Positions 28,785-63,088 of a DNA stretch of 64,000 bases are shown one piece after another. The position numbers and the translations under genes were made by a program. This stretch comes from Eunapius fragilis (lineage: Eukaryota; Porifera; Demospongiae; Spongillida; Spongillidae), in NCBI GenBank assembly GCA_963681505.1, contig OY811973.1, positions 10,140,559 through 10,204,558 on the forward strand. The letters run 5' to 3'. The notes below the pieces were generated by a model, which had not been told where the DNA came from, made no database searches, and saw nothing but the letters and a program-made list of their open reading frames with translations. Position 1 is the stretch's first letter. The number at the start of each line of letters is the position of its first letter.

Positions 28785-28793
28785 GATCGAGCC

Positions 28794-32198: not shown

Positions 32199-35100
32199 AT
32201 GGATGAGTGTGAGATGAACGGAAAACCATTGCGACCACGTAGTACAGTCTCTGCCACTATAAAAGGAATTCTACGTCGTTATCCGGATGGTCAAATCTTT
32301 AAGGCAAGCTCTATAACCGATTAAGCTGCGGAGTACTATTATAGATTGCGTTTGCATATGAGTGGCGATCTGCAACTAGGTATGAATTCAGTTGGCACGC
32401 TGGAGGGACAAAGTGTGAGAGTTCTGTCTGGCTATTTTCATACCACGCAGCTTCATACGATAACTGCCGGGAGGGGGGAGCGGGGTTAGGGGGGTGCACT
32501 CCCTCCGCGGTACACTCAACCTATTCAGTATATACACACATCCCGCTACTTATCTAAAGGTGTGTGGTGGAAACGAACGAAATGTCTAGCTTTGGGGTTA
32601 GAACTATTCATTCTGGACGTTCACAACTTGTGAAAAAGGACGACCCGAAACTGCGGGTATTTAATAGAGATTCCTTGGCTATGCCATTTATGGACAAGTT
32701 AACAGCTAGGCTGTTAACATATTCCCTAGACAAATTATCTCACTTGATTTTTAGCAACTTTCATGAATTCATAGAACCTTGAGTGGAATGAATTATTTGT
32801 GAAGGATGTTATGAGGATTTTATCAAGTATAAATAACTGCACTGGATACATAAATTTAGTTGGCTTGTACATGGGGGAGGAGAGGGGGAAGGAGGCATGT
32901 GAGGCACTGTAATGAAGAGTTTTACAATGTGCAGCAGGCTTATCAGCTTATACAGTTCACTGGCTGTAACCATGTAAGGGGGGTGGAATGTGCCATCCCT
33001 GCCTTTATATAGTTTTCTATATCAAATTATCTATATGCACAGAGTCCCTTAATTGTGGCAGAGACTCTCTGTATTTATAAATCTGTATGGCTTCCACTTA
33101 ATACCTTGATGAAGGTCCTGCACTTGAAGAGTTTAGAATTTAATTATGTTACATTCAGTGTGCTGTGACAGTTTCTAGTCGGAAGTTTCGTTAGAAACTT
33201 CCATATAGGATTTGACCCCGACTATGAATGTCATTAAAAAAACGCGACCCGTCAGTAACAACACTCCCGACGATCGGATCGTGTAGCTTGTTTTAGCAAT
33301 CGATCTAGAAGTCAAAAATGAGTAGTTTCGTTTTTGTTTCATGTCGCTGAACCGCGTGGTTGTTGAGAACAAGAGTGTACTGCCCGTCCTCGTACCCAGT
33401 CTCGGAACAAGGGGCGGGTCGTCTTCTTATTCTCCTTCTCCTCCTTCTTGGCAACGCATAACTCAGGACAGGAACATTTCTAAGCGATGAAAATTTCATC
33501 AATAGTGTCAGAATCGGCTGGAGGACTCGCTTTTATATAATATATGAAAAAAAAATTAAGAAAACAAGTAAATAAAAACATTCTCTACGAGAAAGTTGGT
33601 GGGATATAGGATTTGATTATGACATTGGTGGTGTAAAAAGCAAGGAAACAAGGTCTTATCAGAAGGGAAAATGTCATAGTCCTATATTTAGCACATTTCT
33701 AGGGCATGTGTTGTTTGTGTGCTAAATATAGGACTATGACATTTTCCCTTCTGATAAGACCTTGTTTCCTTGCTTTTTACACCACCAATGTCATAATCAA
33801 ATCCTATATCCCACCAACTTTCTCGTAGAGAATGTTTTTATTTACTTGTGTAATGTAGATTTTGTGCCTGCATATTTAGCATCGTATGTGCTTATTGAGT
33901 ATCTCGGGTATGCTACTCATTGAATGTTTTACAATTCTTCCATTATAGGAACTAATTCAAAATGCAGATGATGCAGGTGCTAAAGTAGTCAAATTTATAA
34001 TTGACGATTGTCAATATGATAAAACCAATTTGGTGAAACCAGCAATGGCTCAATACCAAGGCCCAGCATTATTGTCATATAATGATGCTCAGTTCAAGCT
34101 AGAAGACTGGGATGGTATTCAGCTACTGCAAAACAGCAAAAAAGCACAGAATCCAGTGAAAGTAGGAAAGTTTGGAATCGGTTTCAATGCAGTCTATCAT
34201 ATTACAGGTAAGTGCATGTTATGTATGCTGCTGTACCATTGGTAATACTAGACTACTGCATGACAACTGTCCACGCAGACCTTCCTATTATAATCAGTGG
34301 TGATACCATTGGTTTTCTTGATCCTCAAGAGAAGGTGTGGCCTCAAGGTGGTTGGTCATACGAGCTTGGTGATATGTGGAAAAGGAATAATTTGTTGAAC
34401 ACAATGCTTCCATTTATTGAAAAGCAAGGATTCACTAGCAATATGAAAATGTATCCTGGCACTTTGTTTCGATTTCCACTTAGAAATGACATTTCTGATA
34501 TTTCTGAAAAGCCTTACACTGTAGAAAACCTGTGTGACCTGCTGATGAACTTTAAAGAGGAAGCTAAATTTTTACTACTTTTCCTACAGTCAGTCACTAC
34601 AATTGAAATTATTGATAAAACTAATACTTTTAGCATTCAGATAGCAGAAGAGAAACAAATTCATGATAAAGATGCCTTTATACAAAATGTCCACAAAGCA
34701 TGGGAACAACTTCAAGGGGCAAGTAAACCAATGTCTCTAGTGATAAAGTTAAATGTCACAATTCATGTGAATGAATCTTTAAAATCCGAACATAGCTGGC
34801 TAATTGCCTATTATTTAGGATGTCTAGTTGGCGATGATCTTTGCAAGGCAAAGAAGCTCAATGTCATGCCTTATGTTGGTGTTGCAATGGAAGTACCTAT
34901 AGATGGTGCTGCTGCATCGGAATTACTTGTAGACAATGCAAGGGAAATTCATTTAGATGACACAGTGGCAGCTACTAGTAGGATATTTTGTTTTCTACCA
35001 ATGCCAGTGGAGCTCACTTGTCCTCTTCCTGTCCACATAAATGGTACATTCGCAACAAGTGATGATCGCAGATCATTGAAGTGGAGGAGTGCTCAGAACC

Positions 35101-38100
35101 AAAGTGAGGAGGATGAGGCACGTTGGAATGAGATCATTGTAAGCAGACTGCTTCCACATTGCTATGCATTACTCATTAAGGAGGCATGCCAACGCTTGAT
35201 ACATAGTGATGTGGTTTATAGAATGTGGCCTAATGTCACTGATGTGCTTAAGAGCAAACATTGGAATCCAGTTCTTGAACCTTTGCTTAAAATACTTTAC
35301 ACCCAGAATAACTTCTGGACCACTGATGGCAGCATAGGTAGGTGGGTTGGCTTAAAGGATGCAATAATCACACCCATAGTGGAGTCATGTCCACCTGGCT
35401 GGGAAATAGTATGTGATGTCATTGCCAAGTCTAATAAAATGCTTGTTGAAGTTCCGCAAAATGTTTTGGAATGCTTGAAACTTAAACATCATGTAACAGT
35501 GAGTGAGTTGACACCATTTCTTGTAACACAATTACTTAAGCAGTACCCATCCAGCTACATTAATCGCCCACAAGATGAAAAACTTGCACTTTTAATGTTT
35601 TGTCTTTCTGATAAATGCTTTACTAATGTAGTAGGACTTCAGCTGCTTGCATTGGCCAATGGGAAGTATGCTGAGTTCCATGCAGCCTCAATAAATGCAG
35701 AACAAAAGTTCCTGTGTACAGATAGGTACCCACTTGAAGTTTTCCTTGAAAGGAGCCATCACCAGTTAGTAAATATAATAGAGGCAGATAAGCGCACGTT
35801 ATTCCTGGAATTGGCTGAGTCTGGGAAAACAAATCTATGCTTATTGGATGATAAAACAACCAGTGCGCTCATGTCCAAATATGTGTCGGATATCTCTTAT
35901 TCTCAGTGGCTACCTTTGTTTTGGGATTGGTCACAATCACATGAACTGAAGTACTTTCTTGGTCAGTATTTGATTCCTCTATCATGTCCACACAATTACG
36001 TGGCACAATTATCTGATAGCAAGGTTTCAAAGATAGTTTATTTGCAGGATGATGGTGATGAAGAAATTCTAAAGTGCCTGCAAAAATTTTCTATTTTATA
36101 TGTAAAATGTAGTGATTATCCATACTTCAAGCATGCTGACCTTGCTAATTACATTCATAAATTCTCCCCTAATGGAATACTCAATGCTCTACAAAACATT
36201 TCACTACCCGAGACTATGGCTATGGACTTAACTGAGGCATACATATTTCAACAATTTCTGTCTAGCATTGCACCTCCATCTTCGAGTCAAATTGAAGTGC
36301 TTTTGTCTCTTCCAATCTTTATTACAACAATGGATACGATAACATCAATTGGAAAAGCTTCTTCATCATCATGGAAAAGAAATGTTGTTATGATGACATC
36401 AGAACAGTTTGATATTGCCTGCTTGCCATCAAATTTGGTTGTCCTCAAGAGCATTAATAACAGGCCCTTATTAGAAAAGTTTGCTAAAAAATTCATCAAA
36501 TTCCCTGACATTAATGACATGATCCAAACTGTGCTATTGCTTATGGTTAAAGAAGATGCTATTGTATCATCTGACCAAACTGATAAGATGATGTATTACA
36601 TTTTACAGTTTTTGAGTAGCAATGGTATAGATATGTGTAAGGAGATATCTACTCTTCCATTTATAAAAGTTGAAGAAAACCCTTTGAGTAGACGAAAATG
36701 CCCCATTGAACTGTATAGTCCAACATTAAGTAAACTTTTCTTTGGTAAACCTGTAATTCCATTGCCTCCATATGATAATTCAATGTGCCTAAATTATTTA
36801 ATGCGCTGTGGTCTCATTACATTGATATCTCCTCAAATGATTATTGATGTGATTAATGAGATTGGAACCAAACCCTCTGACAGCAATTGCAATGGTACTA
36901 AAGTAAGTAGTGTACAGATGGTAAGAGCGCATGCTGTGCTGAAGTACCTACTATCTTGTAGTAGGGAAGAACTAAATACGATGGTGTCATTTCAACACAA
37001 ACAAATGACGCTACAAATTGCAGTCGTGCAATCGTTTAGTACACATGACTGGCTTCCAGTTCAATATGTTCCACGGATTGATTATCCTAAGGACTTGAAT
37101 TGGAAAGGATCTGATTATCCATCCCATTTTACATCTAAAGCAAATGGAATACTTGTAATAAACACCAAAACACATCACATTGCTGGGTCTCAAGTACTAA
37201 TTGTGGATACCAGAGAGTACCTTAATGCACCAGAACGAGTGCCTGAACTTGGTTTGTCTAGTTTGCCCAGTGTTGAACATGTTCTTGATCATTTTACACA
37301 TGTACGTGATCGGAGTACTAAACTTTCCACTGAAGTGCTTCATGACATTGTTTGCCAGATATATGAATTTTTGTCTAAACATTCATCAGAACCATTAGAT
37401 ATTGCCAAAATTAAAGCATATAAGTGTCCTTGGATAATGGTACAGGATGGTCACTTTGCATTTCCTGAAATGGTTGCTATGAAAGGAAGAAAGGATTGTT
37501 CACTGATTAACCTTGCACCATACAATCATTTCTGTGTTCCCAGTACATTACTTAAGTACAATGATCTTTTTACAAAATGTGGGGTTGAGAAGGAGACAAC
37601 TGATAAACAGCTCCTTATGGTGCTATCCACAATGAAAATGAAAGCGGATTATACTCTCCAATCTATGAATATTGTTGTCATTATTTTGAACTCACTCACT
37701 GATAGCGGTACCAAAATGGTTAATTTACAAGATTCTAACTTATATGTTCCAGTTGAGTCTAAATCATATTATTTTGAGCTGCAAGATGCTTCAATGGTTG
37801 TATATTCAGAAAGTGATGACTTGACGGGTTATGGAATTGGCTTGGAGGATAACATTGTTGAATCTGAAGACACATTGGATGCCTCAGAACCTTGCTTATT
37901 GCTGCACCATGATGTGAATCTCAAATTAGCAGCATTTTTAAACCTCCGATCATTGAAATATCACTCACCATTTGGAGCAGAACCATTTGGTCAAAGTGAA
38001 AATATCACAAACAGAATCAGAACAATCCTACGTGACTATCCTTTTGACATCACAGTCATGAAAGAGCTGATACAGAATGCCGATGATGCTAAGGCTAGTA

Positions 38101-41100
38101 AGGTATACTTTATTGTGGACATGCGCACTCACGGAAATAAAAATCTGCTTTCTCCTGAGTGGGAAGAGTTGCAAGGTCCAGCTCTACTTGTTTGGAATGA
38201 CAGACAATTTTCGGATGACGATCTCAAAGGAATACAGAATATTGGCCTAGGTAGTAAGGGCAGCAGGGTGGAATCTATTGGACAGTATGGTATTGGCTTT
38301 AATGTAGTCTACCATCTCACTGATTGTCCAAGCTTCATCACAACGGGTCGCTTGTATGTACTAGATCCATTTGGTAGATATGTAAAATCCAAGGATCCCA
38401 CAAGACCTGGGTGTAGCTTCAGAGTCACCAAAAACTTTCTTAGGCATCATTTATCTCTGAGAAGTGCATATTTATACTCTGATGTTAATATATCAGAGAA
38501 TGTACATTCTGGTACACTTTTTCGCTTTCCACTCAAACAGTCATACATAACGGATTCAATGAACAACTCACAATTCCTGACGGCTGATTATTTGTATTCC
38601 ATGCTTCAAATTTGGATTAAACAGGACATCAAATTAGTTCTCCTTTTTCTTAATCATGTAAGAGAGATTAAGCTGTGTTTCATTGATAACAAAGATTCGT
38701 TCCATGTTTTTTACCACTGCGTATGTAGATTTCAGCAATCAATGGAACAGAAGTTTTCACAACTATATTCTGAAGTTCAGAACTTCACTATGCATGCCAA
38801 ACCATACCAGTTACAGTACCAGATAAATCTGGTGGAATTTGATGGTAAAACTGAGCCTATGTCATCGGATCTATGGATGATCCAGCAAGGGGTGGGAGAC
38901 AGGGACAGTAATATAGAATCATGGCAGTTAATCAAGTCAAAAAAACCTCACTATGGTATTGCAGTACCCTTCAACCCATCTGTTACACCATCAGCTTCAG
39001 GACAGATTTTCTGCTTCCTTCCTCTTCCTATCAAATCAAAACTACCAGTCCACATTAATGGACGGTTTTGTCTAGACTCATCAAGACGGGCACTCTGGAC
39101 ATCTTCTGTTCCAGGTCAAAGTGATGAAAGGCAAAGGTGGAATTTGAATCTAGGGAAAGCTGTCTCATCTTCATATGCTGCTCTGTTGTCCAGTATTGCT
39201 CCAGAGTATGTTGGTACCTCTCACTCTGATGAGAAAGAACTTGATAATAGATTGAAAAACTTTTTTTGCCTATTTCCGAACTGGAAAATTTACTCACCGG
39301 CAACAAATCCAGAAGGGATGTGGCTCCAGGTAGCTAAAGATGTTTACAAAAGCCTTGTCAAACAAAATGCATGTATATTGTGTCAGAAAGTTGAAGTCGC
39401 TGGTAAGTCTGAAATACAAGTGCAATGGCACCCAATAAAGGGAAGAGATGAAATAGATCAAATATACTTACCCTGTGCCAATAGTAATCTTACAAAGCTG
39501 TTAGTAAGGATGGGCCTGAAATTTACTTGTATACCACTATCCCTGAAGTCCTTCTTTTTAGAGGTGGAAGAAGAATTACCAAAAATCAACCCCAACATAG
39601 CATTTAAGTCTTTTGATGTCCTTTGCAAAGCTAAAAGCAATGTGGCATATCCATGCCCTGTTGAATGTACAGTATTCAAATCAACTGATGATTTTGTACT
39701 TTTTACTAAATATGTGTTACAAACTCAAGGAAATGGTTTTTTGAAATTCCCAACAACACCATTTTCCTTACCCCTGATTTTAACTGCTGACAACTATTTA
39801 CATCCTTTAACCAAATCCATGCAGGTCATTAAATCAAGCAATTCATCGTTATTTCCAAATAGTAAGCAGTGTTTCATGCACCCACATTTGGTGACTTTGA
39901 ACTACTCCTCTGAGTACTTTCTTCCACCCAATGCAATGAGAATTAGTTATTTAGAGGACATTCTTGACCATAATTTGCCACATGCGCTTAAACATAAGCA
40001 GTATACAGATCAAGCCAGCCAATTCTTTAAATATCCTTATCTACATGATCTATGGAAGTGTTTAAGTTCAGATCCATATTTCCATGCTCATCGTGGCTTT
40101 GTTAATAGAAACTGGGCACTTCTTTTGACATGGAATAATGAACTCTACCTCAGGGATGATGTTGGCTTGCTTCCTGTAATACTGGAGTATAATAATTCTA
40201 TCAAGCATGAATCTGATGTTAAAATTGAACAAAGTAGACTTTTGTATAAGAAAATGGTTTTAGTATTGCTAGAACTTGGAATGCCATTTCTTAATGATGA
40301 CATAGTCATTACAGACATTTCAGAATGCCCACACATTTCTGACTATATGAAGATACTTAATAATATGATTTATCTTCACAGAAGAAGTGATATTTCATCA
40401 ACTTTGACTGAAGAGCATATAGACATCATACTGGAGTACTTTTGTACCCATTCTTCATTAATGCCAAACATTGAAAAGCTGACAGAACTTCCACTATTAA
40501 AAAATGCTGCAGGGAGTGATTTAAATGTTGCAGGAAGTGCACTGCAAGGAAAAAAGTTATATTTATTAATTGATTTAATATGCATTCCTGAAATAATAAG
40601 TTGTATGAGAATTGAAACAAGCTGTGTGTTTGTGTCTAAAAGTTGGAAGTGGGCAGATTTCTTAAAACAGATATGTCCCAAAACAAAAATATTATCACCT
40701 GAAGAGTTTTATGCACAATTTGTGATACCTAACCTTGAAAAATTTACTGAAGGAGAAAGGTATGTAATTCTGAAACACATTCGTGATACCATATATTTTC
40801 ACTATCGTGGCAATTATAAACTGATGGAGAAGGCAGAGTATCAGTTAATTAAGAAGGCTCTATCTGAAGCGCAATGCATAGGTCCTGAATGCAGACTTAT
40901 TTCTAACTACTGTGATCATAGAAATCCAATATTTAGTTTATTCTCTGGCCTTTTTAATTTCCTTCCTGAATACTTTAAAGATGGCGAAGAATCTGTGTGG
41001 CTGGAATTTTTTAGTCAATATAATTTAAAGATGTCAATCTCAAATAAGGAATTCATTGATTTGTGTAAAATGGTTGCACGTGAGGTTAATGCTGAAGCAA

Positions 41101-43793
41101 GCCACTATCTTCTGGAACACCTTTCCTCCAATTGTACATGGTATGAAGATTTTGAATTTATTTCAAGCATTTCTGAAATTCCTTTTGTGTGTGCCAGTTC
41201 AGTTAGTACAGTTCGTTGGATTTGTGAACCCCCCAAACACAATGGTGTAATGACAAAATTATGTGGTACAGCAGTAGAGGAACACACATCACTACTTTGG
41301 ACATTACAACCAATTGTTACATTGCCACTACCACTCTGTCAACGACGTTCATTGTTTCAAATGGTCAAAACACCCTCTGCTTCAGATGTGATCAGCAACA
41401 TAATAAATATTTCATCTAAAAGCACTAATTCAGGTCAAGGGCTATTTCTTAATTTTCCAGATGAATTAAAGACACCTAAGGAATGCTTGACATTACTGGA
41501 TGTAATGGTTCATAATTTTAAGTACCTAAAGCAGCATATGGAAGTTACAGAATCCTGCCAGTTTAATTGCCTTGCTGATTTGCCATGCATTCCTGTGTAT
41601 GCAAACCCTTCGCTGAAAAGCAAAGATAAGATGGTGCTAGTGAAGCCGCTCCAAGTTGTTCTAACTGGTGATGGATATAATTTCCATCCTCATGTACATA
41701 CCCTTCCAGATGAGCTTTCAGAAGTCTTTCCTTTCCTTCAAGTAATTGGAGTAAGAAAACAAATTGAACTCCATCATTTAAGACTCATCCTTGAGAGCCA
41801 ACTAAATAGCTCATGTAATGAGCCTATTGTTAGCAATGCAGTTGAACTTCTCTATAGGCTTCTTCAGCAGGAGACAAACAAAATGTATAATGCACAACTA
41901 TTAAGTCCATTATATTTACCAAATGCACAAGGACAACTTAGAGATTCTACTAAACTCCTATTACTGGATTACCAATGTAGGGATATTAACTTCAGTGACC
42001 CTAGTTTGCTGTTTAAGCTACCTCAAAAGTGTGTTTTCTCTGAAGTAAACCTATGTGAGCTCCTTCCTACAAGTCTAGCACCAAAGGCAATGTCTACATG
42101 TTGCAAAGAGATAGTATCCTCCATACCTACTGATCAATGTTCTGTTGTATTGAACAATTATAAAGCATCCTTGATAAGCGAAAATTTTAGAATTGCTCTC
42201 TGCTTAATTGTACAAGACATTACTGCTTGTGATCAGATAAGCAATGAAATTTATGACTGGTTGGTGACGTTTCAAAATGCTGTTAAAGTTATAGGAGTTG
42301 AAAAACTAACAATAACAGTATATTACAATGACCATGATGTTGCTACTATGGCATCTGTGCTTCATATGGACAGCACCTCTTACAAAATATACATAAAATC
42401 AAATCTGAATGGAGTTTACATTGATTTTGCGTACAGAAAGTTTGCAAACCAATTAATTCAGTTGCTACTGATGAATATCTCAAGCACAAATTGGAACACA
42501 AAACAGCTCATTGATGCCATCCCATTACTTCTTAAGTGCAATGGCTGGAATGAGACAAATGAATGTTTGCAAGAAATACACATCAAGTCAGTCAGAACAC
42601 AAGTTGACATCAAACTAGGAGCTGAAGTGCCAGAGTCATGTATTGATTATGACGTTTGCAGTCCACTGAAAACATGGGTTGTATATGAAAATGAGAAAGG
42701 AGATATGGTATTTGTTCAAATAGTTAATTGGGATGTTTCATGCAATGCTATAAACACTGAGAGATATAAAATTCTTCTTAATGAAACTGAAACTACATTT
42801 GCAGGCAGGTTGCAGCTTTATAACATCAAAACGGAGTCACTAACCCAAAATGAGCATTCTGTTGTGAAAATCAAAGAAGATATAAGCAAATTACTTGAAT
42901 ACTTCTCATCTACATATGACAGAGAAAAATTACTTCAAAGGTTATATTTTACATGGTTATATCAGAACCAAAGTGTGTTGGATTTTCTAAAGGACAAAAT
43001 TGTTCAATTATTTCCTGAAAATGAAGCCAGTAATACTCCAACCCTACCTCAATTAGCACATCCTTATGGTAAACCCAGTGATGTGGAAATGGATACATGC
43101 CATCATCCAGTACCCAGTAGTCACTATGATGTTCAAGGTTCTAGCACTAATGCCACCATTCAACACCATCTTCCAGTCGATGTTCAAAGTCCTAAAATAA
43201 ATCAAGGGAACACATTGAGATCTAGAAGTGTTGTAAAAAAATATTTACCACACGTAACGTCTGGTCGAGCACTCTTAGATAAATGGAATTCAATTGCTCA
43301 AGGGCTCTTCAAGGATAGATGGAAAGGTCGATGTGTATGTGCTGACATCACAAATTACCCTGACCAAAAAGAGGGCAAGCGTTGGTTAGAACAGGCCAAA
43401 AATGATTATAAAGCTCTTCAATTACTTAATTACAGCCTTAATCGTCAAGGGTACCAGGACATGTGCTGTCATGTCTGCTTCATGGCACATCAAGTTGCTG
43501 AGAAGGCCTTAAAGGGTGGAAGGTATGCATTGTGTGGTATGAGCAATGACCTACTAGCCAGTCACAATTTGACTCCACATGCCCATGCCATACAGAAAGC
43601 AAAGCCTGAGCTTTTTAATCGATTGGTTGAATTATCGGTTCCTTTAGAACAGTACTACTTGGGTACTCGCTTTCCAAACAGACACCAGCACCCACTTGTT
43701 CCAAAGGATGTGTATAGGGCAAGCGATGCTTCTGAAGCTTTTGAAAATGCAGGGAACATTCTGAAAATCATTGAAAAATTAATTGATGGATAA
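32199..43793 (+). CDS. Sacsin-like protein with HEPN domain
   Basis: Three exons: 32199-32303, 33949-34207, 34279-43793; 3,292 codons plus TAA. Exon phases agree, and the conserved [15 protein letters not shown] / [11 protein letters not shown] block is rebuilt exactly across intron 1. Intron 1 (1,645 bp) has a GC donor (AAG|GCAAGC); intron 2 is 71 bp. Domains: HSP90-type ATPase fold 1 (about residues 15-250: [24 protein letters not shown]); a long all-helical repeat region; ATPase fold 2 (about 1353-1600: [29 protein letters not shown]); a second long region; and a C-terminal HEPN domain (about 3154-3285, [16 protein letters not shown]). Human sacsin has three such repeats plus ubiquitin-like and J domains; none of those extras is visible here. 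Sacsin family members act as chaperone-like proteins; the role here is inferred. No internal stop in 9.5 kb argues that it is functional. Confidence 0.93.
33181..33848 (+). mobile_element. AB foldback element, copy 1
   Basis: Left end: stem GGAAGTTTC / loop GTTA / GAAACTTCC (33181-33202), followed by 'atataggatttgaccccgac' shared with the other copies. Right end: a hairpin with 132-nt arms (33564-33695 and 33718-33849, including one edge base pair) that are perfectly complementary, loop 22 nt. The middle shares 'gcgaccc', 'cgcgtggttgt' and 'cgcataactc' with copy 3. No protein. It lies in intron 1 of the sacsin-like gene, in the sense strand of its pre-mRNA. Confidence 0.88.
33564..33849. repeat. 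Perfect hairpin, 132-nt arms (copy 1)
   Basis: Arms pair without a mismatch from 'acaagtaaataaaaacattc' to 'cctatatttagcaca'. Transcribed as part of the intron, it would fold into a long double-stranded RNA. Confidence 0.93.
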
Positions 43794-44690
43794 ATTAATA
43801 CTTCACATGGTAGTGCAATGTGTTCAGATTTTGCAGTGTTAAAGCTGATATAGCAGAATTATTTTTATTTGCAGTAATGATTAGAAGCTCCACTTGTTTT
43901 GTAATGTCTGATTGACGTTAGATATAATGTTTATAACTTTAATGTACCAAGTACTTCATCATCCCAAACTGAATTACCAGCAGTTAAGCATTGTCCTACA
44001 CACCAGGAGAACATGTACATGCTGAGACATGCCTGTACAGTAGGGCGACACTTCTACACACCTGAGCTGAGACCTATATGGCATGTACATGGCACGTAAC
44101 GTATATGGGGTTGCATATGATATAAAAGTCACGCACTGACTCCGTTGCATGGACGCAGGCTGGCGTATAGATGAACTATTATACCCTTTATTGCATACTC
44201 TAGCACTGATTGTAAAACACGGAGATTGACTCCTTTTGCGATATGCGTTGGTTTTATGCATGCGATGCGAAAATGTTATACTGAGCTATCTATATGCATG
44301 CAGTGTCAACAGCTCGGAGGATGGATCATCCACCTTTTAAAAGAATCCGGTCCTCTATTGATTGAGGACAGAAACTTTCGTCATCTTATTAAAAGAAGGG
44401 GATTTCAACTGCTGGACTTGCCTGAAGCTGGAATAAGGGATGCATTTGTTGTCCAAGTCAAGGGGGGAAAGGAGGTAATTCGTTCTGTGATAGTATTCAT
44501 TTTGCTGTTGTTGATTACTGCCGGTTTGTTGGTATATAGAACGTTAATGACCGCACGATCATGAAAGGCTATTATAGTGGAGGAATTCTATATCACATTT
44601 TGAAACAGATCCATGATAAAGATATATTGTCTGCATACTGGTTCAAGAAAAACCTAAGTATACATGCTAAATTGAGTCATGTATGTGTCA
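43794..44690. other. Downstream spacer; possible start of integrase gene
   Basis: Nothing firm. A 113-codon frame (44226-44564) contains a hydrophobic run (VIVFILLLLITAGLLVY) that would span a membrane, preceded by a plausible soluble segment (HLIKRRGFQLLDLPEAG). It may be an unrelated short gene or the decayed 5' part of the next locus. Confidence 0.35.
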
Positions 44691-45424: not shown

Positions 45425-46187
45425 ACAAGTAAATAAAAACATTCTCTCTGAGAAAGTTGGTGGGATATAGGTTTTGCAGGCAAATAGTATACTGGTGTAA
45501 AAAGCAAGGAAACAAGTTTTATCAGAAGGGAAAATGTAATAGTCCTATATTTAGCACACTTCGACTAAGGCGTATGTTGTTTCTGTGCTAAATATAGGAC
45601 TATTACATTTTCCCTTCTGATAAAACTTGTTTCCTTGCTTTTTACACCAGTATACCATTTGCCTGCAAAACCTATATCCCACCAACTTTCTCAGAGAGAA
45701 TGTTTTTATTTACTTGTTTCCTTGACTTTTTTAACACCCAAATCACTGTTGCTTCGCAGGTTTTCCCCCTTTCATTTAACTGATTTAATTCAATCCAGAC
45801 GTATTGTGAAAGTTTTCTAGGTACTATTGCTTAATTAGACTTGATAAGACCGTATATAGGCTTTTGTGTATCAAAGCGAGTCCTCCAGCAAATTCTAAAG
45901 CTATTGGTGCAATTTTTGTTGCTTAAAAATGTTCCTGTCCCGAGTTATGAGTTCTCAAGAAGCAGAAGCAGAAGAAGACGACCCGCCCATTATTTTTGGA
46001 AGGGGAACGAGGATAGCAGTATTTTTCGTTTACGACAACCACGCGGTTCTACGACGTGAAACAAAAACGAAACTACTCAGTTTTGACTTCTAGATCGATT
46101 GCCGCAACACTACGGTAGGGTCGCGAGATTTTAATTAAATTCATAGTCGGGGTCAAAACCTATATGGAAGTCTCTAGCGAGACTTCC
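45425..46187 (-). mobile_element. AB foldback element, copy 2
   Basis: Reverse orientation. The large hairpin is 45425-45558 with 45584-45717 (134-nt arms, one mismatch: 'aaatagtat' against 'ataccattt'). The small stem is GGAAGTCTC / loop / GAGACTTCC at 46166-46187. The middle is the reverse complement of the copy 1 core. It interrupts the integrase-like coding sequence between TPYELV and PRAFFVP. Confidence 0.85.
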
Positions 46188-46289
46188 ATCTCCAAGAGCA
46201 TTTTTTGTTCCAGATGTCAACTTTTGGGGACAGCTTGATGAAGATGTTTTGAAGCCTTGTGACAGAGAAATTTCAGAGGAAGGGACGAA

Positions 46290-48250: not shown

Positions 48251-48540
48251 CTTCATGCAGTACAGTATAAACTGATTATCACTATTTGTAACAGTCATAG
48301 TATATTAATATTTCTGTTGCATGATACTAAGTACTGGGAAGTTGTAAGCCTCATGTCAGCATTATACAACAACATGAGTTACTAGTGTCCATAAACATAC
48401 ATTGTCATCTTCTCTTTATGACAGAACATCTTCCCATAATGTGCAATCGTCACATCCATACAGATGGCCGGTTGTATCAAGCCTTATCCAAAAAAAACAG
48501 CCTTAATTGTGCATATTCATAATCATAAAGATATTAAATA

Positions 48541-48805: not shown

Positions 48806-48809
48806 ATCC

Positions 48810-49235
48810 GTACGGAACATGTTCACGGCATTGATTCCATGTATATGTGTGCCAGTATATCGGCAGGGATGGCGCAAATGGTCGGCCCGGTCGGGATTTA
48901 GCCCGTCCACTTTTTACTAGAATTGATAGCGCGTGGTACACAGGGAAAAAAGTTTGAAATACTACGGCATAATGCAATAATTTTTCAACTGTAGTAAAAT
49001 TATACAACAGTTTTACATTACTTTGCTCGTAAGAGTCAGTAAAACTATTGTAATTCTGAATTAAATCATGCAAAAGTAATGTAAATTTTACTAACAATGT
49101 TAAAATTACATCCCATGTAAAACACCAATTTTAAAGCATCTGCAAATCACAATTCACAACAGTTTACAACAATTTTACATCAGATCATATGGAAGTACTT
49201 CAGATTATCAGGGTAGCAAAGAGAACATTTTTTCC
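48810..49235. other. No gene recognised
   Basis: AT-rich spacer before RT3. It contains repeated 'taaaattacatc / ttttacat' themes but no supported feature. Confidence 0.45.
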
Positions 49236-51601: not shown

Positions 51602-51823
51602 TGTACACGTTACACGCGTATTGTCAGTAGACTGGATGGTGCAGCCCAATCACGGACAGCAGGCTATATTCAAGAACTCCGTACTCACACAAGCAATACA
51701 CTTATATAGGAATTTACAGATGGACAGACTGACTGGCAACTATGACGTCATCTATAGAGCATGCACAATGACAGACAGAGAAGGACAGAGAGACTAGACA
51801 TAGTCAACAGTACAAATATTACA
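51602..51823 (-). repeat. 3' LTR of truncated Gypsy (222 bp)
   Basis: On the minus strand it begins TGTAATATTTGTACTG and ends CGTGTAACGTGTACA (TG...CA). It is preceded on that strand by the polypurine tract GGAGGGAGGAAA (51824-51835). No second LTR exists in the window. Confidence 0.82.
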
Positions 51824-51871
51824 TTTCCTCCCTCCTTGCAAAGGCTGCTGCTACAAACGATCAGGTGGGCG

Positions 51872-54035
51872 TCAGTCCCTGGTAGACCGACGGAGTGGAA
51901 CTGGATTTGGAATGGGTTCAGGAACTGCCTGGATTACAGCATCAGCTAGAGGTACTGAGATGTCAACCATGGGTGGTCTTTCCTCATCTCTTGTTGCAGC
52001 CTCCTCCTGAATGTCTGGAAGGTCAACTACTTCATCCTGCTGTGCTGCTGTAGTCTTCTTAGGGACTTGCGGCTCAGGTGTGGGTGACCGAGCCTTTACA
52101 TGGTCTGTATGACGACGCACAGCTTGACCATCCTCCAGCTGTATCACCATGGACACAGGACCAGACATAGCGGTGACCACTCCTGGGACCCATGTGGGAG
52201 AACCATGAAAATTACGTGCACACACCAAATCCCCATTCTGGAACTTGCAATACTTGGCATGTTGATCATGGGCTTCCTTCTGCAGCTCCTGTCTTTGAGT
52301 CACCTTGGGTGAGATGTCTGGATGCAAAAGGTCCAGGTGGGATCGTGGCCGCCGACCCAACAACATCTCCGCAGGTGAAAGTCCAGTTGTTGTGTGTGGT
52401 GTAAGCCGATACTGAAATAGAAATCTGGCCAGCCTTGTATCCAGATCTCCAGTGGTTTTCAAAATGGCCTCCTTGAAGGTCTGGACCACTCTCTCAGCTT
52501 GTCCATTAGATGATGGATGATAAGGAGCACTTCTCACATGCCTGATGCCATTCCTTTTAACAAATGTCTGGAACTCAGCACTAGTGAATGCGGAACCGTT
52601 ATCTGAAACCATCATTTCTGGTAGACCATGCGTGGCAAAAAGGTTTCTCAATACTTTAATGGCCTGTTGAGAAGAAGGTGTTGTTACCACAGCTACATCT
52701 AACCACTTTGAATGCGCATCCACAACGACCATAAACATCTTTCCCAAAAACGGGCCTGCAAAGTCCAAATGAAGTCGAGACCATGGTCTGGCTGGCCACT
52801 CCCACGGGTGCAAGGGGGCCACCGCAGGTGCTTTACCATGTTCCTGACAAGCTTGACAACCTTTTACTTTGCCCTCTAAGTCAGCATCAATCCCAGGCCA
52901 CCAAACAAAACTTCTAGCTAGTCCCTTCATACGCGTGATCCCAGGGTGAGCATCATGCAGAGTACGCATCACAGCCTCTCTCCCAGCAGGCGGAATAACT
53001 ACGCGATGCCCCCACAATACACACCCATCCTGCACGCTTAGCTCGCATTCTCTCTGCTTGTATGGACGAAAAGTCGCATCGTTACTAGCGTGAGCCTGCC
53101 ATCCAGTCAAAGCCATGTTTCTGACACGGGACAGAATAGGATCTTTATCCGTCCAGGACTTTATTTCGGCAGCGGTCACAGGAGAGTCGCCTGTTCTGAG
53201 CGTTTCCAACATGAATATGGTGTCCCCGGGAACAGGCACATCTGCAGTACTCTCACTAAGTGGCAATCTACTGAAAGCATCGGCATTTGCTTGAGAATCA
53301 CCAGACTTAAACACAATACGATAATTGTAGGCACTTAAAGTCAACGCCCACCGTTGTATTCTTGATGATGCCATCGGTGGTACAGGGCGTGTCTCACTGA
53401 AGAGATACTGTAGAGGTTTATGATCGGAGTAAATCGTGAAGCTTCTGCCCACAAGGTACTGATGGAACTTCTTAACCCCAAAAACGATCGCTAAGCCTTC
53501 CTTTTCTATTTGAGAGTATTTGGCTTCGGCAGGTGCTAAGGTACGGGACGCATACGCGATCGGCCTCTCAGATCCATCTTTCAGCTGATGAGACAAAACT
53601 GCTCCAAGCCCGTAGGGTGAAGCATCATATGAAAGGATTAACTCCTTTTCTGGATCAAAGTGGATCAACAGGCTGGAGGAGGACAGTTGCTGTTTTGCAT
53701 GGTTGAACGCCGCATCCTGTTCTGCCTCCCAGCACCAAGCAGCACCCTTCCGGAGCAGCCTATACAGTGGAGCGAGTATGTCAGCCATGTTGGGCAAAAA
53801 CTTGCCGTAATAATTCAGGAGACCCACAAACGATCTCAGCTGCCCAACGTTCTGAGGTCTCGGAGCATCCTCTATGGCGCGTTTCTTCCCTTCCGCTGGA
53901 CGAATGCCATCAGCTGAGATGTGGTGGCCCAGGTACTCAACAGAAGGAGCCATGAAGACGCATTTGGAGAGCTTTAAGCGTAGTCCATGCTCTTCCAAAC
54001 GCGACATGACACGATCCAGCGTGTGAAGGTGTTCA
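51872..54035 (-). CDS. pol: Truncated Gypsy pol (RNase H and integrase)
   Basis: Open without stops to the TAG at 51872-51874. It contains RT connection (VEYLGHHIS), RNase H ([23 protein letters not shown]), the integrase zinc motif ([19 protein letters not shown] ... CQACQEHG) and a D,D,E core ([29 protein letters not shown]), ending with a charged tail (STRD). It lacks the RT catalytic core, so it cannot replicate by itself, but the integrase looks intact. It is a different Gypsy lineage from the element at 20207-25817. Confidence 0.88.
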
Positions 54036-55476
54036 CGTGCACTTACCATCATCCAAGAGCTTGGCCCTCCATTGGGTCTGTTTATTAATGCAGCAAAATG
54101 TAAACTCTTCAGTATTAGTGATCTCAGCATGTTCCCACCAGAAATGAAAAGATCTAGTGTACCTCATTTGGAGATCCTGAGAGCTCCTATTGGGGATGCA
54201 ATTTTTTGTGCCAAAATTGTATCTCAGAAGTGTGCTACAGCCTCCAAATTACTTTCCCAACTGGAAGAGGTTGGTTCTGTGGACCCCCAAGTTGCTCTGC
54301 TTCTGTTACGACAGTGTGGCGGATTGTGTAAGCTTGTGCACCTGGCAAGATCTACACCCCCTTCTCTCATTGCCGAAGGACTGGAGTACTACTTCGATAA
54401 TGATGTTCGTCACTGCTTTGCTCTATCTACAGCTGTAGACACCACAAACAATGCTTGGAAACAGGCACAACTAAGCCTTAGCAGAGGTGGTTTAGGGCTT
54501 CGCCGGCTTTCAGAACATTCATCTGCCCGTTATATAGCATCTCTAAGCATGGCTGGCATGTGCTCTGAGACCAATCAGCACCTGTTGAATGCCATCGATA
54601 AGTTTAATGAACATGTTTCTAATGAGGATACAGTTACATTGGAAACTATCAGAGAGACATCATGCCGCCAAAAGATGCTTTCGAACAAATTGGAAGACAG
54701 CCTGTTTGCACAGCTTTTTTCAAAATCATCATTGCCTGACAGAGCTCACCTTTTATCAGTTTCATCTCCCCATGCTGCAGCATGGCTTTCCACAGCTCCT
54801 TCTCCTGGTCTCAATCTGCAGTTGGAGCCTTCTGAGTTCCAAGCAGCCTTATAATGGTGGCTTGGTGTTAGCATCTCAGGCTCTCAGGGTGCCACATGTC
54901 CTCACTGTCCAGCTCATTCTTTGGACCCTTTAGGCCACCATGCTTTGACATGCAAGCATGGGGGCGATGTGGATTCGCCACAACAGGCTTCGGGATGTAT
55001 TTGCAGAGTCATGTAGGAGAGCCTGCATAAGTGCACAGGTGGAGGTTGGGTACGGCTTTACATCTGAGGAACGCCACACGCGACCAGCTGATGTCCTGGC
55101 AGCAAACTGGATGATGGGAAAGCCTGCTGCATTTGACTTTACTGTCACATCACTGCTAACCTCAAGTAATTTACCTGAAGCGAGTGTGACAACAGGGTCT
55201 GCAGCCTTGGCAGCAGAGGAGAGAAAGCATAATGCCAATGACTCCAAATGTGCAGAACTGGGTTGGGTATGCATCCCAATAGCTGTGGAGACCTATGGGT
55301 GTTGGGGCACTGAAGCAAAGTGGGCAATATTGCAGCTAGCCTCTCGCTTGGCCACACGTCAGAACTGCCCAAAGTCTGCATCTGTCACAGCCCTATATCA
55401 AAGGTTGAGCATGACCCTTGTTAGGGCAAATGTGAGGGCTCTGCTGTCCAGGGCCATCTCAGACACCGGCTACTGA
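54036..55476 (+). pseudogene. RT3: non-LTR element, 3' part
   Basis: Resumes the RT3 protein right after the truncated Gypsy: [20 protein letters not shown], the conserved IFCAK / LARSTPPS blocks, LSLSRGGLGLRRLS, and the zinc knuckle (CPHCPAHSLDPLGHHALTC). A TAA at 54852-54854 and a frameshift near 54965 break it. After the shift come the nuclease (RPADVLAANW...FDFTV) and the terminal ETYGCWGTEA block, with the stop at 55474-55476. The 3' tail is short and A-rich (about 55477-55572) rather than TAA-repeated as in RT2. Confidence 0.85.
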
Positions 55477-55749
55477 TAGGTAATTTATAACGTTATGTGC
55501 TTGTTTATCTGTATTGTACAAGTTTTTGTCTATAATCATATTAAAGCATTATTAAAGATAAAAAATAAAAAAAACAATTTAAAATGTTTTACATTGATGC
55601 GCTCAAGTAATTACATGTCATTATATTCAATCTTGTAGTCTGTTATATAGTCGTCACCTCAGAGTGTTAGTGACCAGATGTGCAAGTTTGTGTGTGCACG
55701 TGCTGGGACTAACCATAGATATTCATAAACTAATATCTTTGGACTAATT

Positions 55750-57984: not shown

Positions 57985-58198
57985 ACGACCACTTTAAAGG
58001 GTGCTGCGCCGGCCGTGATCAGTATAACTCAATAATGATATACTTTAGTCTCACAGGCCAACTTATCAAAAAGATAAGTTGGCCTGGTGGATTTCTCATT
58101 ACACGAATAACTCAAAATAAAGCGCGCATTTAGTTTCCAGCCTTCTCTTCTCGCAACAAAGGGATGAAACTTATACCGTTGTCATGCATAGTCGCCAA
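57985..58198. other. No gene recognised
   Basis: Spacer after the hAT pseudogene. It contains a small hairpin, 'ggccaacttatc' then 'gataagttggcc' (about 58048-58086). Confidence 0.45.
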
Positions 58199-58965: not shown

Positions 58966-59221
58966 CACCGTTTTAGTCCTCGAAGGACGCCTAACCGATC
59001 GAAGTATCAACTCGATCAGTACGTTCGGTTGTACGGATAAAGAAGGATTAGCCACATTTCTGTGCCATGCGGTAACTAGGGTTTGGTTGCTTGTCTCCAA
59101 GTAGGGCCTAATGTAATGCATGGAATCGATAATTGTGAATAACTCCCCCACGCCACGCCCCCTCGATAAACAAACACGTACGTAGTGAAGTTAGAGTTCC
59201 TGTCAAGTTCGAACGGCGATC

Positions 59222-60634
59222 ATGCAACCAGCAAGATTCCATCAAGTAGGAGGAAAGGACGACTTTGTGTTGATCAGTACGAGACAACCTTCTGCGAATA
59301 ATAGCGATTTTGATTTCGACGTCATTGAAAACCCTGCCGAAAAAGTAGAGTTTGATCCGACGCAAAGCCATCTGATCGGGTTCGCTATCAACGATCAGAG
59401 TCACGAGAGGTTCAAAGCCAGGACTCTAGGTAGGTCCGTCGTGAACGATGCCAAACTCATCTCGGAGACCTTTGTGCAAATCGGCGCCCTCCCCCCGCGC
59501 AACGCGATCGTGCACGAGGCCAAAGAAGCCGTCAACAACTGCACGTTCGAAGGAATGAAGAGGTGTTTTGTCCAGACGGCTCGGTTGGTTGGAGAGGACG
59601 GTCTCTTCGTCTTCCACTTCTCTGGACACGGTATTAGGGTCAGAGACGACCAGTGGGGACTGGCACCTTCGGATTTCGACTACACCGAAAGCACTTACGT
59701 CACAGCTAAGGTACTGAACGACTGGTTGACGGAAGCCGACTGCAAAGCCAAACACGTCCTCTTCACGTTGGACTGCTGCTACGCCGGGGGCGTGGCACAG
59801 TCCCTTATGTCAACCGAGGTCTCCCACCGAAGCCTTTTTGTCATGAGCTCATGCACTGCCGACGAGACCTCTTACGCCGTGGGAACTCTGGATCACTCCG
59901 TGTTCAGTTACTTCCTCTCTGACGCCATGAAAAGGTGTGCGAACGCGGGGAGGGAAACGAAGCAGGGTCTGACATTTTTCATCGAATTGCAAAAAATCTT
60001 CGCCGAGTGCCTTTTTTGCTCGGAGGCATTGTCTTCGCTGCTGGTAAAGTACGTGGATGGAACACTTCACCCAGCAGAGATACATCCCAACATGCAAACG
60101 TTTGGCCCTCCCTCGATAAGATCCTTCTCCGTCACGGGCACTGACGAAACCGACTCGTCTAACATTGGGCGATTTGATTACGTCATCAGGCACTACGACC
60201 GTCAGTCCATACAGCCCCTCGACAGAGACAGTGAGAAATGGCTGAGCAGTCTTTGCCAGCCTGAGGGGCCCCTCTCAAAGCTCCAGAGCAGAGGCCTTCT
60301 GATGCGCAAGGAGGTGTTGCTTACAGCACTGTCTTCCATGATGTACAGCGTTGGTGCTTATCAGCTCCATCGTAACCCTGCTAACGTGTGCATGGTTAAT
60401 ACCTTCATCACAGCATACCTGAATGTTGTGTCTGTTATCGACTTTCATTATAGTAAAGGCGATTTCTCAGCATTTCACTTTCTTATTGCATTGGGGTATT
60501 ACATGGAGGTATTGAAGAAGAACAGCCATCCGTATGACCCACTTCGTGGCTTGTATACAACAATATGCAGAGAAACGAACCAACTGGAAGACAGCACTGA
60601 TGGACCAGAGTCTAAAGTGAGCAGTGTCCACTAA
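59222..60634 (+). CDS. Caspase-like (C14) peptidase, single exon
   Basis: 470 codons from the ATG at 59222 to TAA. The caspase/metacaspase fold is visible: LIGFAINDQ first strand, LGRSVVNDAKLISETF helix, FHFSGHGIR with the catalytic His (residue 136), and LDCCYAGGVAQS with the catalytic Cys (residue 186 by alignment to the DSCHSG box of metacaspases). FVMSSCTADETSYAV and HSVFSYFLSDAM follow, as in C14 proteins. It would cleave after acidic or basic residues depending on subclass, which I cannot tell. There is no long prodomain. Residues about 300-470 form a C-terminal extension with no recognised domain. The gene is GC-richer than its surroundings, intronless, and free of stops, so I judge it functional; a retrocopy origin or foreign origin is possible but not shown. 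Confidence 0.85.
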   Translation: MQPARFHQVGGKDDFVLISTRQPSANNSDFDFDVIENPAEKVEFDPTQSHLIGFAINDQSHERFKARTLGRSVVNDAKLISETFVQIGALPPRNAIVHEAKEAVNNCTFEGMKRCFVQTARLVGEDGLFVFHFSGHGIRVRDDQWGLAPSDFDYTESTYVTAKVLNDWLTEADCKAKHVLFTLDCCYAGGVAQSLMSTEVSHRSLFVMSSCTADETSYAVGTLDHSVFSYFLSDAMKRCANAGRETKQGLTFFIELQKIFAECLFCSEALSSLLVKYVDGTLHPAEIHPNMQTFGPPSIRSFSVTGTDETDSSNIGRFDYVIRHYDRQSIQPLDRDSEKWLSSLCQPEGPLSKLQSRGLLMRKEVLLTALSSMMYSVGAYQLHRNPANVCMVNTFITAYLNVVSVIDFHYSKGDFSAFHFLIALGYYMEVLKKNSHPYDPLRGLYTTICRETNQLEDSTDGPESKVSSVH

Positions 60635-61544
60635 TCATGCATGCATGGTACATGCAGCATGCTTCGGATCCACCCCATGCACTTAAAAAAAAAGAATAAT
60701 CTGGGCACTGTCGAATTGCTACAGTACTAATTTACTAGGGTTGATAAAAATCTATATCTATGTTGAGAGGGGAGGGGGATTCCATGGGAAAGTCCCTTAT
60801 CAGTACAGCAATTTAACAGCTATAATTGTCTGCATTATGCAGTAAGGTGACACATCCTGTGTTAATGCCACATCCTGTGTTTATGCCACCCTCTCATTAT
60901 TTTCACAGCTTCCAGACATTCCCCCCATCACCAAGTGGGAAGCATTGTAAGCAAGGATGATGTCTTAGATAAATGTAGATAGTCAAGTTGTATACAGAAA
61001 ATCATTTCCCAGTGTCCACTAACCCTGCATCAGCATCAGATTGATTTTTATATCTTGTTGTATTTATCTGTATAAAAATTTGAATGTAGCATAAAACATG
61101 GAACATCTCAATAGCTTGGACGGTGGCTTTAATTGAGCACTGAGCCATGTATCAATGTATTAAAATGATATCAAATTGGATGCCCAAGCTTGCAAGTATT
61201 TGTTGTTGTCCAGATTTGGAAACTTGGAAGCCCAGCCATACTCACAGATAATGTCAGAAGAGTGTGTCATGGAGAGATTGGGGAGGGGAAGTGGGAGTGT
61301 CAGATGTACATGCCTTATCAGCCAAAGAGGTCAGTTTGTAGAGGATGCTGAACTGGTGGTAATTCAGTTTGGATGATAAGGTATTTAGTACATTACAGTT
61401 ATAAACACTATATCTAAGGTCAATCAGACATACAAAACAAGAGGAGCTTCTAATCATTATACTGCACATAAAACATAATAGCTAGGACACCACAAAATCG
61501 GAACACATTGCATTACCATGCATATGATTTATTAATAATTTATC
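60635..61544. other. No gene recognised
   Basis: Downstream of the caspase-like gene. 'cacatcctgtgttaatgcca' is partly repeated at 60851-60890. No supported coding sequence. Confidence 0.5.
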
Positions 61545-61603
61545 CAATTAATCTTTCAAAGATCTTCAGACTTTTCAAAAGCTTCAGAAGCATCACTTAT
61601 ATC
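61545..61603 (-). pseudogene. Dead sacsin-like paralogue, 3' end
   Basis: On the minus strand 'gatgcttctgaagcttttga' matches the last exon of the sacsin-like gene (its SDASEAFE block at about 43724) exactly, followed by a diverged match to its final codons and stop region. It is the continuation of the HEPN fragment at 63088-63349 beyond the AB element. Confidence 0.72.
61600..61603. other. Target duplication of AB copy 3, left (TATC)
   Basis: TATC precedes the small stem and recurs at 63088-63091 after the large hairpin. Removing the element and one TATC joins the two halves of the sacsin-like paralogue in frame (P K D I S D A S E A). Confidence 0.6.
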
Positions 61604-62224
61604 GAGAGTTACGTTAGTAACTCTCATATAGGATTTGACCCCGATTATGAATGTCATTAAAAAAACGCGACCCGCTTCTAACAAGACTCTCGACGAGCGG
61701 ATGGCTTACCTTGTTATCGTCGTCGTACAAGAAGGCAATAACAAGCAGTTTCGTGTTTGTTTGATGTCACAAAACAGCGTGGTTGTAGAGAACAAAACAA
61801 TTTTTGAAACTCGTACCCAGTCCCACGTATTTTTCTTCTTCTTCTTGTTCTTGTTCTTGACCACGCATAACTCGGGATAGGAACACTTTTAAGAAATGAA
61901 AATCACACCAATGGCTTCAGAATTCGCTGGCATTTTCGCTTCTGTGGTCAAAACGTCTCGAGGCTACATGACATATATCGGTGGTTGTGTTAGCAAATCA
62001 CGTATAGCTTACTGCACTGACACGACTCGGATAGGTCCTACGTCGCTCTTTATACGAAGTACTAGCAGTATACATCAAATGTGTACGGTCTGGGCACTAC
62101 ACGTAGTGGTAATTAACTTTGGCGGTTATGTATTTTTAATAACGTGCACGTGCGTACTATAATCATTCGATCGTTGTAGGTTTGACGCTCTTTGTAACTT
62201 AGTGAAGTTTTTTTTTTTTTTCAA

Positions 62225-62430
62225 AATGCCTTCATGCACGTCAGGAAAAGAAGAAAGCCAAACGACGAGCATAGTACCTCAAAACTAGAGACGACGTATT
62301 AGATTCAGCCCGAGCGGAACTACAAAGCAGAGCCTGAAAAGAAGCGGGCCTCTCAAACATGAAAACTATCGAGCAGAGCCTGAAAAGAAACGGATCTCTC
62401 GACGCGCAAGGTATCGAGATGCGATTAGTA

Positions 62431-62462
<32 letters not shown>

Positions 62463-62702
62463 GGAGAGGGTGCTGTCTGCTTCTGGCCCGATACAAAATG
62501 CGTTTGTGGGTTCGATCGCGCTGGGGCGACAATTAATAACCTCTCTTCTATTTCGGCCGCCCCTTAAAAGCCCCCTCAGATCCTGAAAAGGAACGGACCT
62601 CTCGACGTGCAAGGTATCGAGCAGATCCTGAAAAAAGACAGCGATATTGCCATAGTCCTAAACGTGCATCTCGCTCGGCGAAAAGAGTGAAGGTCACTCA
62701 AA
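62225..62702 (+). pseudogene. YRADPEKK-repeat coding fragment
   Basis: After a T-rich stretch, ATG at 62225 opens a basic frame that soon hits TAG. Downstream, several decayed copies of a repeat of the type YRAEPEKKRISRRARYR are readable in changing frames (about 62350-62430 and 62580-62660), ending SPKRASRSAKRVKV before a GT donor (AAAG|GTATGT, 62703). Such repeats occur in sponge transposon-associated proteins as I recall. It may be cargo captured by the AB element or a coding remnant of its autonomous form. Confidence 0.45.
62431..62461. repeat. Poly-G tract, 31 G
   Basis: A run of 31 G inserted in the basic-repeat fragment. Probably unstable and possibly mis-sized in the assembly. Confidence 0.9.
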
Positions 62703-62797
62703 GGTATGTCGTACCTTTACTACCTCCCTCTCATATCAAGATGGATTACTTAACATGCTATACGGCTCATAATCGGGTATGAATAAAAATCAATGAA

Positions 62798-63088
62798 ACA
62801 AGTAAATAAAAACATTCTCTATGAGAAAGTTGGTGGCATATAGGATTTGAAGGCAATGGTGGTGTAAAAAGGAAGGAAACAAGGGTCTAGTAATAAGGGA
62901 AAATGGAATAGTCCTATATTTAGCACATTTCTATATGTAGGATATAGTATGTTGTTCGTGTGCTAAATATAGGACTATTCCATTTTCCCTTATTACTAGA
63001 CCCTTGTTTCCTTCCTTTTTACACCACCATTGCCTTCAAATCCTATATGCCACCAACTTTCTCATAGAGAATGTTTTTATTTACTTGT
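62798..63088. repeat. Perfect hairpin, 130-nt arms (copy 3)
   Basis: The arms pair without mismatch; loop 31 nt. Compared with copy 1 it differs at several arm sites (for example CTATGAG versus CTACGAG; GGCATATAGG versus GGGATATAGG; AAAGGAAGG versus AAAGCAAGG), each change present in both arms. Confidence 0.93.

Follow-up and report, generated by a model that had tools for sequence, protein, structure and literature searches.

The closest described relatives of the elements considered here are found in the Helitron2 group, whose members encode a RepHel protein, carry an asymmetric subterminal inverted repeat and hairpins at both ends, and in some families insert without target duplication; their Rep frame may lie in either direction, and compensatory changes occur in their small terminal hairpin (PMC3627910; here and below, features credited to published systems are those given in the accessible parts of the reports cited). 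HINE/DINE-1 elements and Helentrons resemble the present family in having non-autonomous members, subterminal repeats and a 5-10 bp palindrome near one end; their targets are T-rich (PMC4067079). The FoHeli Helitrons of Fusarium share asymmetric repeats, a hairpin at the very 5′ end and, in two subgroups, a 3′ repeat 38-51 bp from the end, but no long foldback is described in the accessible part of that report (PMC5148889). Here we analyze a 64,000-nt stretch of the sponge Eunapius fragilis (the window; GenBank assembly GCA_963681505.1, contig OY811973.1, positions 10,140,559-10,204,558, forward strand), in which we find three copies of what its sequence indicates to be a Helitron2-like transposon. 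Whereas the terminal hairpins of Helitron2 are small, one end of this element is a foldback of ~290 nt with ~130-bp arms that change in concert and a loop that inverts. Differences between families of the element are mirrored in both arms, and the changes that single copies acquire after insertion are mostly not.

An earlier note on this stretch had pointed to three large hairpins, each with arms perfect or one mismatch from perfect, and to at least seven differences between copies that were mirrored in the opposite arm. All three hairpins were recovered (Table 1). Their inverted repeats have arms of 132, 134 and 136 nt in copies 1, 2 and 3 that are 100%, 99% and 99% complementary, that of copy 3 (62792-62927/62959-63094) reaching slightly outside 62798-63088. 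On alignment, the inner and outer arms differ at 0 of 129, 1 of 131 and 0 of 127 columns, respectively, and the 22-nt arm tip (≤3 mismatches) has six matches in the window versus none in 100 shuffles. The three copies represent three families, designated C, A and B, whose consensuses differ by 12-16 substitutions and two insertions or deletions (indels) per pair, identically in both arms, so that the mirrored differences are more numerous than had been noted. Two features go beyond that description: a longer element extends from the hairpin, which forms just one of its ends, and copy 1 has its loop turned around, with respect to the body, in comparison with 20 of the 25 family-C members.

Table 1. 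Element copies in the window and their parts (X, small-stem end; Y, giant-hairpin end)
Feature	Position	Strand	Remarks
Element copy 1 (family C, minority loop orientation), X to Y	33178..33849	+	672 bp; X stem 33181-33202, Y terminus 33849
Copy 1 X terminus	33178..33202	+	GTCGGAAGTTTCGTTAGAAACTTCC; small 9-bp stem, 4-nt loop
Copy 1 subterminal repeat	33203..33215	+	ATATAGGATTTGA, adjoining X stem; motif recurs in both hairpin arms
Copy 1 giant Y hairpin, inner arm	33564..33695	+	From inverted-repeat search
Copy 1 giant Y hairpin, outer arm	33718..33849	+	Element terminus TTTATTTACTTGT
Element copy 2 (family A)	45425..46190	-	Y terminus 45425, X end ~46187-46190
Copy 2 inner arm	45584..45717	-	
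Copy 2 outer arm	45425..45558	-	
Copy 2 X small stem	46166..46187	-	One paired stem change relative to family C
Element copy 3 (family B), X to Y	61601..63088	+	1488 bp
Copy 3 X terminus	61601..61625	+	ATCGAGAGTTACGTTAGTAACTCTC; small stem with three paired changes relative to family C
Copy 3 inner arm	62798..62927	+	
Copy 3 outer arm	62959..63088	+	
Paralogous stretch matching joined copy 3 flanks	43552..43883	-	75% over 342 columns, junction indels; rough empty site only

For a wider comparison, 44 hairpins were taken from 93 loci and the window, and their 88 arms were aligned. Overlapping loci were merged; L024 and L014, although their hairpins lie at different places, share their near flanks, and the two hairpins were treated as one. 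The set leaves out an additional complete hairpin (L034 448-724) and a number of incomplete ones that a profile search detected. Sorting by eye, followed by a leave-one-out check, gave six families (C, 25 copies; A, 8; B, 4; E, 3; D, 2; F, 2). Within copies, the arms differ by 41 substitutions in 5,670 columns (0.72%), with none in 21 of the 44 copies, versus 8-30 substitutions in 121-129 columns plus 2-5 indels between family consensuses. These between-family counts vary by no more than one with the choice of inner, outer or crossed arms. Variation between families involves 63 columns, 42 of which differ by substitution alone; in 62 of the 63 the two arms are patterned alike, and inner and outer cells agree in 377 of 378 cases versus a mean of 220 when outer arms are randomly assigned to families. 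The inner and outer consensuses are the same in five of the six families, the sixth (D, with two copies) having a single-column tie. For each of the 88 arms, the partner arm is a nearer match than all arms of the other families, and leave-one-out sorting assigns inner and outer arms alike in all 44 copies.

This family-level mirrored pattern led us to reject chance or mere youth. The idea that these are ordinary young copies of a few perfect masters, with nothing special about the arms, draws on the 21 copies without an arm substitution (nine of which are copy 1 and eight copies fetched for identity to it), and we give it practically no weight, as the families themselves differ by changes mirrored in both arms and youth does not account for the loop inversion described below.

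With respect to the kinds of change involved, the mirrored differences between families include multi-base indels, and the state pairs between families comprise 45 transversion and 24 transition pairs; private one-armed changes comprise 24 transitions and 17 transversions. The earlier note had left a choice among copying of one arm from the other, gene conversion and selection for double-stranded structure. The mirroring of differences passed on between families greatly exceeds what independent decay would leave, and the mirrored indels and transversions fit arm-from-arm copying better than stepwise selection; resident arms, as detailed below, are not kept paired. Selection for structure alone, under which single changes are lost unless a second, independent mutation compensates, would have to produce dozens of double hits, multi-base indels and transversions included. 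It also fails to predict loop inversion, and shared one-armed intermediates are absent from family C. We regard it as very unlikely, even though compensatory changes are on record for the terminal hairpins of two Helitron2 elements (PMC3627910), the X stem of the present family likewise varies through paired changes, and G-T wobbles make up 15 of the 41 one-armed mismatches. As the main cause, compensatory selection alone was rejected on the mirrored multi-base indels and the transversion excess between families.

The behavior of resident copies differs from that of the families. Relative to their own family, copies show one-armed differences in 62 private and 2 shared columns and paired differences in 20 private and 2 shared columns, each deleted column being counted, so that these tallies are not independent events. 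The shared cases, one-armed and paired, fall in the same two columns, namely a two-copy tie in family D and one family-A column. In 16 family-C copies, one-armed substitutions number 18 in 4,113 nt (0.44%), versus 28 private body substitutions in 5,984 nt (0.47%); this set leaves out copy 1 and L001-L008, which were fetched for identity to the copy 1 hairpin, and all 16 have an X end matching a 31-nt pattern, the body columns of which are thereby fixed by the way the copies were picked. The same 16 copies contain one paired substitution and a paired 3-nt deletion (L076). Resident family-C arms thus decay independently at about the ordinary rate and, since one-armed changes occur at the body rate, pairing characterizes the transmitted lineage and not the resident copies. 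It had been reasoned that independent decay would give unpaired changes, and that unpaired differences accumulating with age would count against concerted arms. Such changes do accumulate after insertion, at the body rate, and the pattern holds for private changes; it is false for the inherited differences, which are mirrored.

A second signature is provided by the loop. Relative to the body, the family-C loop lies one way in 20 copies and is inverted in five (L002, L006, L065, L072 and window copy 1), both orientations having the same arm consensus. In family E, the loop of one of the three copies differs, and families A, B, D and F each have a single form. A tree built from 24 family-C bodies requires three changes to account for the inverted state (bootstrap range 3-3; shuffle mean 4.8), and three inverted copies form one supported clade; an inversion has apparently been inherited. 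Among the matches listed, 20 C1 hairpins are identical to copy 1 over 286 bp, of which 17 could be oriented by a neighboring X end, 15 one way and 2 the other; at least four of these 17 also belong to the 25 family-C copies. Template switching at inverted repeats is known to leave arm homogenization together with spacer inversion as its signature, as documented in rRNA stems and in short repeats of yeast genes (PMC8604942, PMC8794818); here the signature concerns a transposon terminus and a transmitted lineage. Long perfect inverted repeats whose arms change together are also found as palindromes in mitochondrial genes of Nematomorpha (PMC6649704), which are not part of a mobile element and for which the accessible part of the report does not mention inversion.

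The two loop orientations also raise the question of hairpin transfer, in which RepHel would nick the mirrored inner terminus as well and the foldback would be transferred and recopied. Parvoviruses have a terminal foldback in two loop orientations and a HUH-type Rep; they are viruses, with another type of helicase and a linear genome. Transfer of the parvovirus type would invert loops, but on its own it leaves mismatches in place, and the two orientations are expected to be about equally frequent. The Y foldback does contain an exact inverted copy of the terminus, Rep is of the HUH type, and both loop orientations occur (5 of 25 family-C copies and, among the matches listed, 2 of 17 orientable C1 copies are inverted). 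Nonetheless, the large foldback is present at one end only, the orientations, at 20 to 5, are not close to equal, and hairpin transfer alone swaps mismatches and does not remove them. As template switching accounts for both signatures without it, we find hairpin transfer improbable in this family.

In terms of mechanism, the explanation that we consider probable, from the patterns above, is that the arms of the Y hairpin are templated one from the other in a transposition intermediate, with the loop sometimes inverted. RepHel (a HUH-type nuclease joined to a Pif1-type helicase) from ~10.5 kb relatives would move the elements, and in the strand exposed during copying the last ~290 nt would fold back into a duplex of ~130 bp. 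In this state one arm would template the other by polymerase switching, self-priming or hairpin mismatch repair, such that a mutation in a single arm would be either erased or put into both, and a strand-to-strand switch would flip the loop, as suggested by the signatures of homogenization and inversion. A fresh insert would have matched arms, followed by the independent decay that was observed in family C. The process is placed in a transposition intermediate because resident family-C copies are without measurable homogenization; a rolling-circle transposon would expose single strands at this stage. Snap-back copying, conversion and template switching are indistinguishable from these data.

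Several observations weigh against templating in a transposition intermediate, beginning with the fact that its link to transposition is drawn from patterns in the sequences. Family C is without any shared arm variant, paired or one-armed, whereas its body has eight in 376 columns; the evidence for paired change therefore comes from between-family differences and from small families, and the one family-A column that is shared is paired in L034 and one-armed in L088. Paired changes are also seen in single copies (20 columns in eight copies: L014, L026, L032, L034, L066, L068, L076 and L093), which could reflect conversion in residence or unsampled subfamilies. The arms have diverged between families by 0.34-0.70 of the body value, making constraint on the arms likely, with body divergence at 17-44% and its alignment noisy in consequence. 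With respect to the loop, the inverted label is clustered on the tree, 11 of 500 shuffles are as low as three changes, only 4 of 21 inner branches are firm, and the three changes may be one gain and two losses. Nearly all of the sampled copies, moreover, were either selected by identity or lie within the initial 6.5 Mb of a single contig.

Some of these points would suit a scenario in which ordinary host replication converts the arms of resident copies, through gene conversion or template switching where the palindrome is extruded, and transposition is confined to well-paired copies. Template switching at inverted repeats needs no transposase (PMC8604942, PMC8794818, PMC6649704), paired changes confined to one copy exist (for example, the substitution in L066 and the deletion in L076), the arms evolve more slowly than the body, and family C lacks shared arm variants. 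The 16 unselected family-C copies are difficult to reconcile with such conversion, however, as are the third to two thirds of the body rate at which the arms change between families, which is fast for rare events. We think it unlikely, though it is the most probable of the alternatives considered. Continuous arm conversion in resident family-C copies was rejected as a whole explanation, the one-armed changes being at the body rate.

Turning to the element itself, comparison of copies showed that the flanks on one side of the hairpin differ from copy to copy, and that the other side leads through an A/T-rich stretch into a common body; the body being shared on one side only, the hairpin is one end of something longer. 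This is an asymmetric element of 0.67-1.5 kb with the giant hairpin at one terminus (Y) and a small stem at the other (X). In families C and A the body ends with TCAAATCCTATAT or TCAAAACCTATAT, followed by the small stem (for example, GGAAGTTTC-TAAC-GAAACTTCC). The termini of the elements read ATCGG... (or TATCGG...) and ...ACTTGT. Both ends thus bear hairpins, the small stem at X and at Y the foldback, with a 5-bp palindrome in each arm. The subterminal inverted repeat (ATATAGGATTTGA in family C, ATATAGGAATC in family F) is placed asymmetrically, beside X and within the Y arms. The outer ~50 nt of Y consist of the subterminal repeat, the palindrome TTCTC-GTA-GAGAA and the terminus, a layout that resembles the 3′ end of HINE elements (PMC4067079); on this reading, the giant hairpin is a HINE-like 3′ end plus an inverted copy of that end. 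A symmetric foldback miniature element or foldback with terminal inverted repeats was rejected, the hairpin being one end of an asymmetric element with no duplication evident. These termini are also not those of a canonical Helitron1, which has 5′-TC and CTRR-3′ ends and one 3′ hairpin.

The family is abundant. In the 24-contig, 218.9-Mb assembly the arm tip (≤2 mismatches) has 3,433 forward and 3,517 reverse matches, with none for the reversed control, from which, at two tips per hairpin, we infer hairpins on the order of 3,500. The 31-nt X pattern (≤3 mismatches) has 704 forward and 633 reverse matches, its control again giving none. The base preceding X is T in 23 of the 34 copies with an X end, and the base following Y in the 44 copies is A in 19, T in 17, G in 8 and C in none. 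No target duplication is evident at the insertions, for which candidate empty sites are only approximate. An exact empty site was not found: the flanks of copy 3, once joined, align with a paralogous stretch of the window but with indels where they meet, those of L003 belong to a local repeat whose copies cross the junction with small gaps, and the candidates for L006 and L077 are merely each locus matching its own X junction. Among seven incomplete hairpins inspected, two (L064 and L070) continue into sequence resembling other inserted elements, and in two more (L073 and L078) the inner arm is missing its body-side portion; no rule common to the seven was seen. In two places, L081 377-967 and L021 1246-1913, a pair of elements has inserted Y end to Y end, with a separation of 9 and 100 nt, respectively. 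Phage records contained no match to copy 1, nearly all of which served as the query.

Likely autonomous relatives emerged from a search of the genome with Helitron_like_N, which gave 91 matches. Two of these, C1:1777642 and C1:1405918, are near-identical copies of one RepHel lineage, and upstream of the Rep frame both start with TATCGGAACCTACGCGAGTAGGTTCCATATAGGAATCC, an X end with a different stem. The downstream end, read in C1:1777642 alone, is a giant hairpin closing with ACTTGT. From X to Y this copy measures 10,524 bp and contains an open frame of 1977 codons (stop to stop) together with smaller frames. Two pieces of the 1977-codon frame, of 1188 and 722 aa and together covering it from about codon 136 to its end, match Helitron_like_N (PF14214), PIF1 (PF05970) and Pif1_2B above the cut-off, with OTU at the cut-off. 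The frame also contains an H-Y-H motif, which we take to be of the HUH type. The apurinic-type endonuclease domain of Helentrons proper had no Pfam match at E 0.001 in the 1188- and 722-aa pieces. Unlike Helentrons (PMC4067079), then, the present family has no endonuclease domain in the scanned RepHel pieces, an OTU match at the end of the RepHel frame instead of in a separate frame, and a giant foldback.

Since a 10.5 kb relative shares both ends and has a Rep/Pif1-helicase frame, the window elements are placed as non-autonomous Helitron2-like members, presumably moved in trans by the RepHel of such relatives. By the evidence of its sequences, the family consists of Helitron2-like rolling-circle transposons whose terminal foldback is unusually large. 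As the RepHel frame runs from X to Y, the latter is probably the 3′ end, an assignment tempered by the fact that Helitron2 frames run in either direction (PMC3627910). In a separate locus (L058 1050-1250), a truncated RepHel frame of 962 codons ends where an X-type stem starts, at a junction that is either a nested insertion or a newly gained end; this frame length occurs at four places in the genome search. The earlier note had known of no family that combines paired arms with a small stem elsewhere. The plan of subterminal repeats and a small stem is in fact described, for Helitron2, Helentrons and HINE; in the open-access papers searched, as distinct from subscription journals and Repbase entries, we came across no Helitron reported to combine concerted arms and an inverting loop with a terminal foldback of ~290 nt.

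The remainder of the window contains several further features. A tandem array with a 167-bp unit occupies two blocks (7798-10435 and 11509-12309; nearest starts 1373 bp apart), and most of its 300-nt stretches are 98-100% alike. A 33-bp inverted repeat, CAGAGATAATATATAGAGGGATTGG..., with copies 1 kb apart (28793-28825 and 29833-29865), apparently marks the ends of another transposon, and its start also follows the broken-off hairpin arm in L064. An unbroken frame of 3193 codons (34212-43793) has two sacsin-domain stretches and a C-terminal HEPN domain, and its end is matched by the flanks of element copy 3. A 479-codon frame with a caspase domain lies at 59195-60634. Several frames at 13372-25602 and 49104-55476 resemble retroelements, with reverse-transcriptase domains at 14512-17049 and 22342-25602, the latter also having RNase H and integrase domains.

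With thousands of dispersed and datable copies, this family provides a record of the fate of a long palindrome as a rolling-circle transposon multiplies. Because inherited differences are mirrored and later ones are not, the rewriting of the arms can be assigned to the lineage that is transmitted, and strand switching is made visible by the inverted loops. If hairpin transfer were true, RepHel would act both at the terminus and at its exact inverted copy at the foldback base, rewriting the terminal hairpin in each round; this would explain the two loop orientations and the perfect arms, and would form a bridge from Helitrons to hairpin-ended single-stranded DNA viruses. More generally, the family constitutes a natural mutation-accumulation test of template switching at palindromes, and a single-stranded or hairpin stage of Helitron movement could become readable from genome sequence.

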